From Spirochaetaceae bacterium (GTDB lineage: Bacteria; Spirochaetota; Spirochaetia; SZUA-6; RPPD01), in NCBI GenBank assembly GCA_003818675.1, contig RPPD01000160.1, positions 1-5,931 on the forward strand: DNA of 5,931 nt. The letters are read 5' to 3'. The notes beneath the pieces are model-generated. The model was given only the letters and a program-made list of their open reading frames with translations. It did no database searches and had not been told where the DNA came from. The position numbers and the translations under genes were made by a program. The number at the start of each line of letters is the position of its first letter. The stretch's first letter is position 1. Below are positions 1,361 through 4,951 of the stretch, piece by piece.

Positions 1361-2122
1361 TTACCGTAACCCTGCGATAAACTCTCCAACGCCATCCACG
1401 CCTTTTTCCGCGAGCACTCGCAAAGACTGCGTGCCTATGATGGCTATGTCCGCCTTGTCGCGCAAATGGTCTATGTCGGCTTTTGCCTTCACGCCAAAAC
1501 CAAGGGCTATGGGAAGGTTTGTCACTTTTCTCGCGCGGCCGAGATAGGAGTCAAGCGATTCTGAAAAGCTTGTGTCAGCGCCTGTCACACCTTTGCGCGC
1601 AATACAATAAATAAAACCTGATCCGTGTTTGGCTATTTCTGTCATGCGCGCGTCTGATGTTGTGGGCGCGAAGAGAAAAACAGGGTCAAGCTTGTTTTGT
1701 CTCATGGCAGCGCAGTATTCTTCTGCTTCCTCGCAGGGAAGGTCTGGAACAATGGCGCCTTTAAGGCCTGCGATAGCCATGTCCTGTGCGAATCCGGGCA
1801 CCCCATACTTGAAGAGTATATTGTAATAGCTCATGAAGAGAAAGGGGATGGGATATTTGCCGGCAACCTCTTTTGCGAATGCAAAACAATCCGCCACAGC
1901 TGTGCCCTGGTCAAGCGATGCCTGGTTTGCGGCCAGGATTACAGGCCCGTCAGCAACAGGCTCTGTAAAAGGGATCTGGAGTTCCATCAGATCCACGCCA
2001 GCCATTACCATCGCCTCCACTGTTTTGGCACTTGTAGTCATGTCAGGCGCGCCCATGACAATGTGTGTCATGAGCAGAATCCCCTTTTCCCGTTTTTTCT
2101 TTTCAATATATTCACGAAGCAT
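1361..2122 (-). CDS. trpA: Tryptophan synthase alpha subunit
   Basis: This 253-residue protein cleaves indole-3-glycerol phosphate to indole and glyceraldehyde 3-phosphate in the cytoplasm and passes indole to TrpB. The two catalytic acids of the family are present: Glu47 in MELQIPF and Asp58 in EPVADGP. Other TrpA landmarks are the GFIYCIARKGVTG loop, the phosphate-binding GFGVKAKADI and the C-terminal IIGTQSL. It is somewhat shorter than the usual 260-270 residues, mainly at the N-terminus. The usual ELG-PFSDP reads ELQ-PFTEP, marking a divergent subtype, but nothing indicates an inactive enzyme. The ATG at 2122 is preceded by GGAGGG with about 6 nt spacing, inside the end of trpB. The two genes overlap by 11 nt, which implies translational coupling and a 1:1 subunit supply. 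Confidence 0.96.
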   Translation of the reverse strand: MLREYIEKKKREKGILLMTHIVMGAPDMTTSAKTVEAMVMAGVDLMELQIPFTEPVADGPVILAANQASLDQGTAVADCFAFAKEVAGKYPIPFLFMSYYNILFKYGVPGFAQDMAIAGLKGAIVPDLPCEEAEEYCAAMRQNKLDPVFLFAPTTSDARMTEIAKHGSGFIYCIARKGVTGADTSFSESLDSYLGRARKVTNLPIALGFGVKAKADIDHLRDKADIAIIGTQSLRVLAEKGVDGVGEFIAGLR

Positions 2123-3368
2123 GGTAACCCTCCGCTTTTGATCTTATGAAGTCTTTCCATTTTGGATCGTTAACCGCGTCTGCCACTGTGAAGATATCCT
2201 TGTCTCCGCGGCCTGACTGGTTGATGATGACAGCTTGTCCCTTCTCCATTTTGCCAACTTCCGCAAACGCGCCCGCAAACGCATGTGATGATTCAAGAGC
2301 CGGGATCAGCCCCTCCTTTTTTGCTGAAAGTGTCAATGCCTCAACAACCTCACGGTCTGTCGCGGAAATAAATCTGACACGATGAGTTTTTGACAGATGT
2401 GAAAGTATTGGGGAGACACCCACGTAGTCTAGTCCAGCGGCGACTGAATGAGTCTCTTTCATCTGGCCATCACTGTTCTGGAGGAAAAATGTTTTGTATC
2501 CCTGTGAAACACCAACACTCGCGTCCCTGGCAGCAAGGCGGGATGCGTGCATGCCGGTCTGTATGCCATGGCCGCCTGCTTCAACGCCAACAAGCTCTAC
2601 CTTGTCATCAAGAAATCCCGTGAATATCCCCATGGCATTGGAGCCTCCTCCTACGCATGCATATACTCGCGCAGGAAGCTTTCCTGCCTGTTCAAGGACC
2701 TGCTCTCTTGCCTCCATGCCGATGATTGACTGGAAGTAAGTCACCATTTCAGGGAAGGGGTGGGGGCCACAGGCAGTGCCAAGGACATAGTGAGTGGTGT
2801 CCATGTTTGTAACCCAGTCGCGCAGGGCTTCGTTTATCGCGTCTTTCAAAAGCCTTGCGCCTGATTTGACAGGAACCACGGTGGCGCCCAGCTGTTCCAT
2901 CCAGAATACATTGGGTCTCTGGCGTGCCACGTCTATTTCCCCCATATAGATTGTGCACTCAAGCCCGAACTTGGCAGCCATGGTGGCGCATGCCACGCCA
3001 TGCTGGCCTGCTCCGGTTTCTGCTATCACGCGGCGTTTCCCCATGCGGAGCACAAGAAGGCCTTGCCCCATCACATTGTTTAACTTGTGACTTCCTGTGT
3101 GGTTTAAGTCCTCGCGTTTGACGTAGATATCCGCGCCGCCAAAATGAACTGTGAGATTCCTGGCAAAGTAGAGCGGGGTGGGTCTGCATGAATAGGTGGA
3201 CATGAGCGTGACGTATTCATCGTAAAACGCGGAATCGTTTTTCGCTTTTTCAAACTCTGTCTCAAGGTTTTTTATCGTTGTGTAAAGAATCTCCGGAAGG
3301 AATTGTCCTCCAAACTCGCCATAGTAGCCTGGTTTTGCCTGCCCCTTTGATTGCTGTTTACTGTCCAT
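2112..3368 (-). CDS. trpB: Tryptophan synthase beta subunit (TrpB1 type)
   Basis: This PLP enzyme joins indole and L-serine to make L-tryptophan, normally as an alpha2beta2 complex with TrpA. Counting from a GTG at 3374 (420 residues), Lys97 in HTGSHKLNN is the PLP Schiff-base lysine, Glu119 in AETGAGQHGVA is the catalytic acid, GGGSNA (242-247) binds the PLP phosphate and Ser387 lies in the NQSGRGDKDI segment near the cofactor. Length and motifs fit the TrpB1 class that pairs with TrpA, not the longer TrpB2 salvage class. I prefer the ATG at 3368 (418 residues) over the GTG two codons upstream, because AGAGG ends 5 nt before that ATG. The start overlaps the end of the GntR gene by 11 nt, and the 3' end overlaps trpA by 11 nt. 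The frame is intact with all key residues present. Confidence 0.97.
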   Translation of the reverse strand: MDSKQQSKGQAKPGYYGEFGGQFLPEILYTTIKNLETEFEKAKNDSAFYDEYVTLMSTYSCRPTPLYFARNLTVHFGGADIYVKREDLNHTGSHKLNNVMGQGLLVLRMGKRRVIAETGAGQHGVACATMAAKFGLECTIYMGEIDVARQRPNVFWMEQLGATVVPVKSGARLLKDAINEALRDWVTNMDTTHYVLGTACGPHPFPEMVTYFQSIIGMEAREQVLEQAGKLPARVYACVGGGSNAMGIFTGFLDDKVELVGVEAGGHGIQTGMHASRLAARDASVGVSQGYKTFFLQNSDGQMKETHSVAAGLDYVGVSPILSHLSKTHRVRFISATDREVVEALTLSAKKEGLIPALESSHAFAGAFAEVGKMEKGQAVIINQSGRGDKDIFTVADAVNDPKWKDFIRSKAEGYHAS

Positions 3369-4155
3369 AAACACCTCTTAAGTATTGTGAAAACGTGAAG
3401 CGGTCTGTCCTGCACCAGATGCGCGAATATATTGCATCAGGCGCATGTGGAAATGAGAGAATTCTGTGCACCAGAAGCACTTGCCCGGGGGCCCTCGCAG
3501 ATGTCTGGATTTTATCTGGCTTGTTGTTAATGTCATTTTCCGGACACAGGTGTGATTTAACACTCGTTGGAGGTACAGCTATGATAAAAGATTGCCTGCA
3601 GGTTTCGGGAACCATAAAATAACGTTCCTGGATAATCCCCGCAAGGGAATATTTTGCGAAATCACTTTGGATGATGCCTGGAAAGGCAGTTGCCGAAAGA
3701 AAAAACTCCTCAAAGATAACAGGATTCTTTTTGACCAGGACAAGCCTGGAAAAACAGGCCGCTTCTTTCCCTGCGAAAGGATTCTGGTCAACTGAATTGT
3801 CTGTATCTGCTATTCCTTCGATTTTGCGGATGGAAGGTTTGTCTATTATTCGTATTACGGGTGTTATGCCTTTGGCCAAAAAAGCCTGGGACGTGCCTGC
3901 AAGAGAGAACAGGTCAATTGCCTCTGTCTTTTCCTTTACAAATGTGCCGCGGCCCTTTTGTTTGGAAACCAGACCTTTCTGGCATAGCGCCTGCATGGCC
4001 TGCCTGACAGTTGGTCTTCCTATTTTATATTCCATGGAGAGCTCGTTCTCAGACGGGATTTTGTGGCCTGGAGGATAGGCGCCCGAAGAAATACGTTCCG
4101 CGAGGATTCCTGAAAGCTGGCGGTAAAGCGGTATGGGAGACTGCATTGACAACAT
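3358..4155 (-). CDS. GntR-family transcriptional regulator, HutC/UTRA subfamily; probable regulator of the trpBA operon
   Basis: This is a DNA-binding repressor-type protein with an N-terminal winged helix-turn-helix and a C-terminal UTRA effector domain. From the ATG at 4155 (265 residues), PLYRQL (9-14), PSENELS (34-40), RPTVRQAM (47-54) and GRGTFV (68-73) are GntR wHTH hallmarks. The UTRA domain fills about 80-255 and ends in the characteristic CRTDRF (248-253). The frame stays open upstream to 4206, but that stretch contains the promoter and operator, so the longer start is unlikely. ATG at 4155 falls 7 nt after the -10 box; ATG at 4146 is the alternative. Neither has a ribosome site. It is the first gene of the gntR-trpB-trpA-peptidase operon and overlaps trpB by 11 nt. 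Autoregulation through the palindrome at its promoter is likely. The ligand cannot be told from sequence; tryptophan, indole or a precursor are guesses. Confidence 0.92.
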   Translation of the reverse strand: MLSMQSPIPLYRQLSGILAERISSGAYPPGHKIPSENELSMEYKIGRPTVRQAMQALCQKGLVSKQKGRGTFVKEKTEAIDLFSLAGTSQAFLAKGITPVIRIIDKPSIRKIEGIADTDNSVDQNPFAGKEAACFSRLVLVKKNPVIFEEFFLSATAFPGIIQSDFAKYSLAGIIQERYFMVPETCRQSFIIAVPPTSVKSHLCPENDINNKPDKIQTSARAPGQVLLVHRILSFPHAPDAIYSRIWCRTDRFTFSQYLRGVYGQ

Positions 4156-4161
4156 AAATAA

Positions 4162-4190
4162 AATATACGACTCAATTGTAAAGATGTCAA
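4162..4190 (-). promoter_or_regulatory. Sigma70-type promoter of the gntR-trpBA operon
   Basis: On the minus strand TTGACA (4190-4185, perfect -35) is followed by a 17-nt spacer and TATATT (4167-4162, 5 of 6 matches to TATAAT). The expected transcription start falls on or next to the A of the ATG at 4155, so the transcript would be leaderless or nearly so. The -35 box overlaps the left arm of the inverted repeat by 3 nt. Confidence 0.8.
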
Positions 4191-4215
4191 TACAAGTTGG
4201 TAACAACTTGTATTG
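4188..4215. promoter_or_regulatory. Perfect inverted repeat, probable GntR/HutC operator between divergent promoters
   Basis: The left arm CAATACAAGTTG (4188-4199) is separated by GTAA from its exact reverse complement (4204-4215). A 12-bp perfect palindrome in an 87-nt intergenic space beside a GntR gene is what a dimeric wHTH repressor would use. HutC-type operators known from other bacteria are similar palindromes containing TTGTA, and each arm here carries CTTGTA/TACAAG. The repeat overlaps the -35 box of the minus-strand promoter and fully contains the proposed plus-strand -35 box. No T tract follows either arm, so it is not an intrinsic terminator. That the neighbouring regulator binds here is inference. 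Confidence 0.75.
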
Positions 4216-4236
4216 TAGACTTTCCCAACCTATGAT
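4208..4236 (+). promoter_or_regulatory. Probable divergent sigma70-type promoter for the gene at 4243
   Basis: TTGTAT (4208-4213, 3 of 6 matches to the -35 consensus) is followed by a 17-nt spacer and TATGAT (4231-4236, 5 of 6). The predicted start site is at about 4243, which is the A of the ATG of the downstream gene. The weak -35 box lies inside the right arm of the palindrome, so occupancy of the operator should block it. Confidence 0.5.
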
Positions 4237-4242
4237 TTATTC

Positions 4243-4951
4243 ATGGTGTTTTCACAAGATTTTGCCAGGGCAACAGCTCTGAAGCAGAAGCGCAAAATAT
4301 TAAAGGAATATTTCGTTCAAAATCCCAATGCAAAACTCGGATCTTTCGTGGATTCACTTTCAGGGAAACAGGCGGCTGGCCAGCTTATTGGGCTTCGGGA
4401 ATCCTGCATATGATTTGCCGGAAATCCATAATCTTGTGCAGAGAAAGGAGCTGGAGTTACATGCGCGTGAACGCATTTATAATGCGCCTGATATCCCGTT
4501 TTGCACGTCACAGACAAGTATCTGCAAAAACAGAATTGTCGAAACAGCAACAAGAGCCACCGAAGCAGCAGCAGGAGCCGCAGATGCACCCATGCGTTTT
4601 AGCGGAGAACCAGAAGGGGCGGCAAAACTGGTTTCGGCACTTACTATGGATTTTATGAAAATGAAATGAGGCGTCTTCCAGGTATCATGGCCGAGTTTGA
4701 GGCCAAAGGCTACTGCCTTTTTCTGACGAACGCCAATATGCTTCTGGGCAGGGGAAAATAAAGGATCTGATCCACAAGGCATATTGCGCAGGGACATATC
4801 CGGGAAATCACATCTGGATATGCTGGATTACCTGAAAAGAGATAATAAACTTTTCCCTGTTATCATTGCAGTCCTTTTTGAGGAATATCAGGCCAAATCC
4901 GGAGAGAGCGTCTATTTCCCCCGATTTCTAAAGGGCAATGTGAAACTTTAA
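4243..4951 (+). pseudogene. Broken gene of unknown family, four +1 frame changes
   Basis: I do not recognise the family. Coding-like sequence begins at ATG 4243 (MVFSQDFARATALKQKRK) and crosses frames until TAA at 4949-4951. Each frame change is +1, and each can be repaired by removing one base from a short run: GGG 4397-4399, AAAAA 4526-4530, TTT 4632-4634 and GGGG 4751-4754. The joins then read smoothly: GLRNPAYDLPEIHNL, SICKTELSKQQQEP, QNWFGTYYGFYENEM and LLGRENKGSDPQGIL. The reconstructed product is about 235 residues: a basic N-terminus, a Lys/Gln/Glu/Pro-rich linker (KQQQEPPKQQQEPQ) and a C-terminal part ending FPRFLKGNVKL. No signal peptide or membrane segment is seen. Unrepaired, translation from 4243 stops at TGA 4411 after 56 residues. 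The adjacent operon shows no frame breaks over 4 kb, which argues for real decay over random sequencing error, although all four sites are homopolymers. It is divergent from the GntR gene and probably shared its control. Confidence 0.65.
4542..4583 (+). repeat. Two 21-nt tandem repeat units encoding KQQQEPP / KQQQEPQ
   Basis: The unit at 4542-4562 and the unit at 4563-4583 differ at five positions. Four of these are A-to-G changes spaced so that all fall on third codon positions of the frame whose codons start at 4542 (AAA/AAG, CAA/CAG twice, CCA/CCG). All four are silent in that frame, and only the final codon differs (CCG/CAG). The repeat therefore identifies the frame used here when the gene was functional. 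Confidence 0.7.

Follow-up and report, generated by a model that had tools for sequence, protein, structure and literature searches.

The regulator and its locus

What controls tryptophan synthase in a spirochaete whose trpB and trpA genes lie directly behind the gene for a GntR-type regulator, and where on the DNA would that regulator act? The question is raised by contig RPPD01000160.1 of a Spirochaetaceae bacterium, a stretch of 5931 bases referred to here as the window, whose minus strand carries gntR, trpB and trpA, followed by the beginning of a gene for an M28 peptidase. Comparison with related loci indicates that the GntR protein is very probably an autoregulated HutC-type repressor, which would bind a short dyad at the -35 box and control the gntR-trpBA promoter. 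An earlier interpretation made from this DNA alone (the sequence-only reading) had suggested an autoregulated GntR/HutC repressor, and this suggestion is supported by a predicted operator that lies on the -35 box in 84 of 88 loci and tracks the regulator. The genes concerned are as follows.

3358..4155, minus strand: gntR, a GntR/HutC (UTRA) regulator of 265 codons (PF00392 and PF07702), unnamed subfamily
2112..3368, minus strand: trpB, tryptophan synthase beta (TIGR00263, 578.9 bits, scored from a GTG at 3374)
1361..2122, minus strand: trpA, tryptophan synthase alpha (TIGR00262, 205.7 bits), whose start overlaps the end of trpB

Consecutive genes overlap end to start, the ATG of trpB at 3368 lying 11 nucleotides (nt) within the 3' end of gntR. 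The start codon of gntR is probably the ATG at 4155-4153, because the MLSMQSPIPLY of the window fits the MLNPQSPIPLY of its relatives; the intergenic span of 4156-4242 that had been proposed is therefore correct. The term 'trp operon', as used in the sequence-only reading, holds for trpB and trpA, and no more than these two genes is meant by it here.

The gene to the left of this span had been taken for a GntR/HutC regulator, and its product indeed contains a GntR domain (PF00392, 67.3 bits, cut-off 27) and a UTRA domain (PF07702, 26.8 bits, cut-off 23.8), the architecture of the HutC subfamily. None of the 25 listed named NCBIfam GntR/HutC families (HutC, PhnF, TreR and others) reaches its cut-off, the best score being 79.8 bits against a cut-off of 269 and that of HutC 76 against 220. 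The subfamily is marked by nearly invariant stretches, such as IGRPTVRQA, in an alignment of 45 rows including that of the window.

A scan of genome_contigs with the single protein gave no match; an alignment-based scan found the loci. Of 179 confirmed there, 80 were kept, and together with the window and 7 further spirochaete genomes these make up the 88 loci. The viral contigs scanned contain no such regulator. In 79 of the 80 genome loci trpB follows on the same strand, the extrapolated gap having a median of about -20 nt. A match to trpA is present in 74; five of the others are cut off by the end of the contig, inside trpB or shortly past it, and L080 has no trpA match. At E<=1e-40 the regulator is found in 6 of the 26 genomes from the order of G007, as well as in 4 of 392 from a spirochaete phylum sample (G007 is in both). 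In the phylum sample of G001 it occurs in 5 of 297 genomes. Eight of the nine distinct spirochaete genomes with the regulator have trpB adjoining. The G098 stretch covered (L119, 30% identity) contains no trpB match and no site (best 5 mismatches, 400 nt). The system is thus clear but patchy across genomes, gene order and site recurring in many sulfate-reducer relatives and some spirochaetes.

A conserved dyad at the -35 box

The elements ahead of gntR that bear on its control are the following.

4185..4190, minus strand: -35 box TTGACA of the gntR-trpBA promoter (promoter scan and site alignment)
4162..4167, minus strand: -10 box TATATT, 6 nt ahead of the gntR start codon (promoter scan)
4178..4194, minus strand: O1, conserved operator-like site TGTATTGACATCTTTAC, with 0 mismatches to TGTMTTGACAWSTTNAC

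The minus-strand promoter TTGACA-17-TATATT of the sequence-only reading is present, 11 of its 12 bases agreeing with the consensus. At each locus the search extended over up to 400 nt ahead of gntR (six loci were shorter), and the pattern TGTMTTGACAWSTTNAC occurs there with at most one mismatch in 84 of the 88: 80 have none and 4 have one, while L035 has 2 and L021, L071 and L080 have 6-8. None of 1760 shuffles comes below 2 mismatches, and the 88 gene-interior controls all have at least 4. The letters W and S of this pattern were added after the spirochaete sites had been seen, and M after the first 80 loci; the variant TGTCTTGACAACTTNAC is matched with at most one mismatch at 81 of the 88.

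The element reads AAnnTGTC-TT-GACAnnTT, a HutC-like dyad that overlaps the -35 box, with the -10 box 17 nt further on. Base counts over the 84 loci show that TGT and TTGACA are invariant except for one base in one locus, that the -10 box peaks at the 17-nt spacing and that the flanks are near background. Complementarity about the central TT is found in 75, 84, 84 and 84 loci at distances 0-3 and in 74 and 69 at distances 6 and 7, falling to 34-44 further out; the conserved element is a short dyad with weak outer symmetry. Operators of the HutC subfamily are given, in the excerpt of PMC4494728 used here, as the palindrome NyGTMTAKACNy with GT and AC 4 nt apart. The core GT(C/A)TTGAC found in 84 of the 88 loci, with T for the second G in one of them, agrees with this consensus at 7 of 8 bases. 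In the window the core dyad of O1, TGTA-TT-GACA at 4194-4185, overlaps the -35 box, and the full dyad spans 4198-4181 on the minus strand. A matrix built from the 83 other loci places O1 first in the window.

The distance from the promoter to gntR is short. In the window and six spirochaete relatives (L023 and L112-L116) the start codon lies 6-10 nt past the -10 box, and in 11 further loci 6-11 nt past the same place (18 of 84 in total), although in several of these 11 the hexamer at the -10 position is a poor -10 box; the distance in L117 and L118 is 31-32 nt. Given this spacing the gntR mRNA may be leaderless.

The site accompanies the regulator

Site and regulator co-occur. Exact copies of the narrower pattern TGTMTTGACAACTTNAC are present in 6 of the 297 sampled genomes, once and upstream of the gene in all five that have the regulator, and in only one of the 292 without a regulator hit. 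This sole match lies at C7:101288-101304 of G678. In each of 12 genomes chosen from the 80-locus set, which shares G001 with the sample, gntR-trpB is the one place with an exact copy. A search of 8 spirochaete genomes with TTGTMTTGACANCTT gave one exact copy, at gntR, in 6; the other two, G111 and G141, have 1-mismatch copies only, one of them at gntR in each. The exception to the gntR-trpB order, L080, also lacks the site.

L080 itself (5989-6720) encodes a GntR protein of the subfamily without adjoining trpB and without operator, and so forms a natural negative case; the convergent gene that follows it is, from its look, presumably that of an aminotransferase.

At none of 18 trpC loci (2.9-3.8 kb each) was the site found, even with 2 mismatches allowed. 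Across the 12 genomes chosen from the 80-locus set, the search at up to 2 mismatches gave 76 matches, including 12 exact ones, and its control with the reversed pattern gave 67; the spirochaete search with TTGTMTTGACANCTT, at up to 1 mismatch, gave 46, 6 of them exact, against 35. Further matches elsewhere in the genomes are taken as chance. Weak extra sites may exist in single genomes such as G007, where the pattern clearly exceeds its reversed control, by 18 to 8 and by 8 to 2.

Proposed control of the operon

In the mechanism proposed, gntR leads a gntR-trpB-trpA operon and its product would act as a dimeric HutC-type repressor, binding the dyad that overlaps the operon's own -35 box. Since the site covers this box, the bound protein should exclude RNA polymerase and would repress trpBA and gntR alike; with gntR as the first gene, the control would be autogenous. 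An effector in the UTRA pocket would loosen the binding, so that the operon opens when the substrate of tryptophan synthase is present.

Several observations weigh against this mechanism or reduce its force. L021 and L071 are without the site (175 and 239 nt upstream are covered) and L035 has its 2 mismatches. The pattern TGTMTTGACAACTTNAC, which was fixed ahead of seeing the spirochaete sites, is matched with at most one mismatch at 83 of the 88 loci and with none at 73, the window having one. The dyad is only partly symmetric, the columns 4 and 5 from the centre pairing in 33 and 9 of 84 loci. The matrix score of O1, 28.9, is near the bottom of the range of the 83 other loci (28.7-47.9). Finally, related loci are not independent, and the system is rare in the broad samples (5/297 and 4/392 genomes).

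The effector pocket

The best solved relatives by sequence are 2wv0 and 4u0v (NagR/YvoA and DasR), and the model of the regulator fits PhnF, DasR and NagR/YvoA, with the effector domains of DasR and PhnF fitting best. Among HutC proteins NagR and DasR are the best known; both are repressors, and phosphorylated sugars modulate their binding to DNA, as described in excerpts of PMC4333415 and PMC4918961. Within the 45 rows, Arg133 of NagR is kept as Arg134 in all and Glu145 as Glu146 in 44, and Ser86 stands in place of Thr90 in 43. Ser167-Leu168 is invariant (Ser167 in 45 of 45 rows) and lies at the start of the model helix 168-176 (predicted local distance difference test, pLDDT, 81.7); it aligns to NagR Ile166-Tyr167 with MAFFT and on or near Ser165-Ile166 with HMMER, so that the match depends on the alignment. 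Against a pocket of the same kind, the second phosphate-binding arginine of NagR (Arg135) is Thr in 41 of the 45 rows and Arg in none.

A phosphate-bearing effector is plausible from these residues. As the pocket appears to keep part of the phosphate-binding residues of NagR and DasR, indole-3-glycerol phosphate is a candidate effector, as a first guess. The gene trpC is present in 18 of 19 regulator genomes and is outside this operon in all 18, on another contig or more than 1 Mb away in 17 (some distances are blurred by contig breaks) and about 4 kb away on the other strand in G008. With trpBA split off in this way, induction by its substrate, indole-3-glycerol phosphate, would make sense, as in the case of TrpI (see below). 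That the HutC-type repressor senses this compound, giving feed-forward control of the split-off trpBA in the sulfate-reducer relatives and the spirochaetes, is a tentative proposal which falls somewhat short of an even chance.

The regulator might instead respond to tryptophan, as corepressor, or to free indole and not to a phosphorylated intermediate, a variant of the same repressor mechanism that is possible, though less likely than not. Tryptophan is the signal of TrpR (PMC5343134, section 10), and the missing second arginine would suit this variant. However, 10 of the 19 regulator genomes also hold a protein of the Trp_repressor family (a model that is not TrpR-specific), and Arg134, Ser86 and Ser167 are at or near the places that hold the phosphate in NagR and DasR.

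The palindrome and the divergent gene

The sequence-only reading had placed the operator on a perfect palindrome beside O1, between gntR and a divergent gene. The features involved are these.

4188..4215, no strand: perfect 12-4-12 inverted repeat, each arm being the left part of a site, O1 for one and the degenerate copy O2 for the other
4209..4225, plus strand: O2, degenerate second site TGTATTGTAGACTTTCC, its dyad centred 24 bp away from the O1 centre
4243..4951, plus strand: what is left of a divergent gene, four pieces in two alternating frames that match the L138 frame

The repeat, CAATACAAGTTG-GTAA-CAACTTGTATTG with arms at 4188-4199 and 4204-4215, is present as described, and the window has no second perfect inverted repeat that combines 12-nt arms with a loop of at most 10. 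It goes beyond chance, since dinucleotide shuffles gave such a repeat in 0 of 100 cases for the whole window and in 4 of 20,000 for the 87-nt intergenic stretch. Its left arm covers half of O1 (the left half of the site and the flanking CAACT) and its right arm starts O2, a second degenerate copy on the other strand that makes the palindrome perfect. The sequence CAACTTGT is common to only L112, L114 and L118 of the 83 other aligned loci. L023 and L113 have a longer dyad than other loci; in L023 the arms reach about 25 nt each (length by eye) around the same TT centre, which makes the operator a longer inverted repeat.

O2 might weakly bind a second dimer, or it might be a relic. Two dimers, on O1 and O2, would add to the proposed repression and are not opposed to it. 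O2 is the second-best matrix placement in the window, followed in third place by O1 read in the opposite direction, and additional candidate boxes beside HutC-subfamily sites are mentioned in the excerpt of PMC4494728. Such an arrangement is nevertheless doubtful, as the 0.3 scored by O2 is far under the range of the 83 loci (28.7-47.9) and a second copy is absent from the nearest relative.

That the palindrome is a single operator shutting gntR-trpBA and the divergent gene together is highly improbable. In its favour, the perfect arms exceed chance and a divergent gene is also present in the nearest relative. The palindrome is not conserved, however, upstream of the gntR-trpBA relatives: at the 80 genome loci and at all 7 further spirochaete loci no match to it comes below 8 mismatches in 24, the outcome set in advance as decisive, and it is rejected as a conserved operator. 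Of the plus-strand promoter, TTGTAT (4208-4213) and TATGAT (4231-4236) 17 nt apart, the letters are present; as a promoter it is weak, with 8 of 12 consensus bases by hand count, and is unlisted by the promoter scan, whose limit is 9 of 12. Nor is the divergent gene intact, as had been assumed. The frame from 4243 stops after 56 codons, and up to about 4951 there are only four short pieces, which correspond, one after another, to residues 45-82, 1172-1200, 1496-1536 and 1748-1795 in the divergent frame of L138 taken from stop to stop (E-values 2e-9, 4e-6, 1e-7 and 1e-16, in comparison with that single protein). In this nearest relative (L138 4087-9396) the gene is open over 1769 codons; a Pfam search of the 1769-residue protein gave no family match. 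With about 0.7 kb left of 5.3 kb, the stretch in the window looks like a decayed gene, and base errors alone would not account for the missing middle. Because the divergent gene is a remnant, and because the nearest relative, whose divergent gene starts 170 nt from gntR, has a single site, the two-way switch is unsupported.

It is equally improbable that the conserved element, though it holds a -35 box and a 17-nt spacer to a -10-like box, serves only as a strong promoter or is bound by a different regulator, with the GntR protein acting elsewhere, as the conservation extends at least 4 nt before and at least 7 nt after the -35 box to form a HutC-like dyad, of which there is one exact copy per genome searched, together with the regulator.

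Phylogeny and neighbouring gene

A midpoint-rooted tree of TrpB, with 85 rows, joins the window to L112 of genome G033 (support 100/86). The two are within a group of 10 rows, the others all from the spirochaete searches (94/90), apart from the remaining 75 rows, which are mostly of Desulfobacterales and kin. In the window the M28 peptidase gene (1-1395) follows trpA; in the nearest relative (L138 13201-14733) one gene intervenes.

Comparison with known systems

The dre site of NagR and DasR is TGGTCTAGACCA; the operator predicted here, TGTCTTGACA, is not a dre site but likewise has GT and AC 4 nt apart. NagR/YvoA and DasR are GntR/HutC repressors with amino-sugar-phosphate effectors, and Arg133 and Glu145 of NagR are kept. 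In contrast to them, the gene neighbours here are trpBA, Arg38 is lost and the second phosphate arginine is replaced, mostly by Thr.

TrpI of Pseudomonas is a LysR activator of trpBA with indole-3-glycerol phosphate as its inducer (PMC9105386, excerpt). Both systems have a dedicated regulator adjoining the trpBA pair. The regulator here is a GntR/UTRA and not a LysR protein, hence not of the TrpI type; its gene appears to belong to the same operon, whereas that of TrpI is divergent, and a site on the -35 box makes it probably a repressor, unlike the activator TrpI. In the chlamydial trpRBA operon a repressor gene also heads trpBA (PMC7755916, excerpt), though the regulator here belongs to a family unrelated to TrpR.

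The operon's regulator, being GntR/UTRA and not Trp_repressor, also gives no sign of TrpR control. Elsewhere in the 10 genomes G032, G033, G001-G006, G009 and G010 a Trp_repressor-family protein is encoded in addition to gntR-trpBA, which is a hint of divided control of the trp pathway; the model also matches in Bacillus subtilis and is therefore not specific for TrpR. A search for T-box, trp leader and other RNA controls, limited to those listed in Rfam, covered 18 sources, made up of the window, 8 gntR loci and half (9) of the 18 trpC loci, and gave 0 hits at the gathering score. GntR/HutC control had been held to lie outside the standard trp controls, and this agrees with the literature covered; no description of such control of trpBA is among the literature matches listed, though an earlier one may exist.

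Implications

To our knowledge, trp regulation in these two phyla has been little studied. The predicted operator is newly placed, and the regulator is probably a conserved, autoregulated HutC-type repressor of trpBA. The comparison has shifted the site by half its length, which illustrates that a palindrome, even the most striking one in a sequence, is not necessarily the operator. Recurrence of gene order and site in many relatives points to a little-noticed control of the last step of tryptophan synthesis. If true, this would add a DNA-level control of tryptophan synthase, together with its operator, to the known trp controls. Feed-forward control by indole-3-glycerol phosphate, should it apply, would follow the logic of the LysR activator TrpI, reached through an unrelated protein and with opposite sign. 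An unnamed GntR subfamily thereby gains a predicted target, a site and a short list of ligands.
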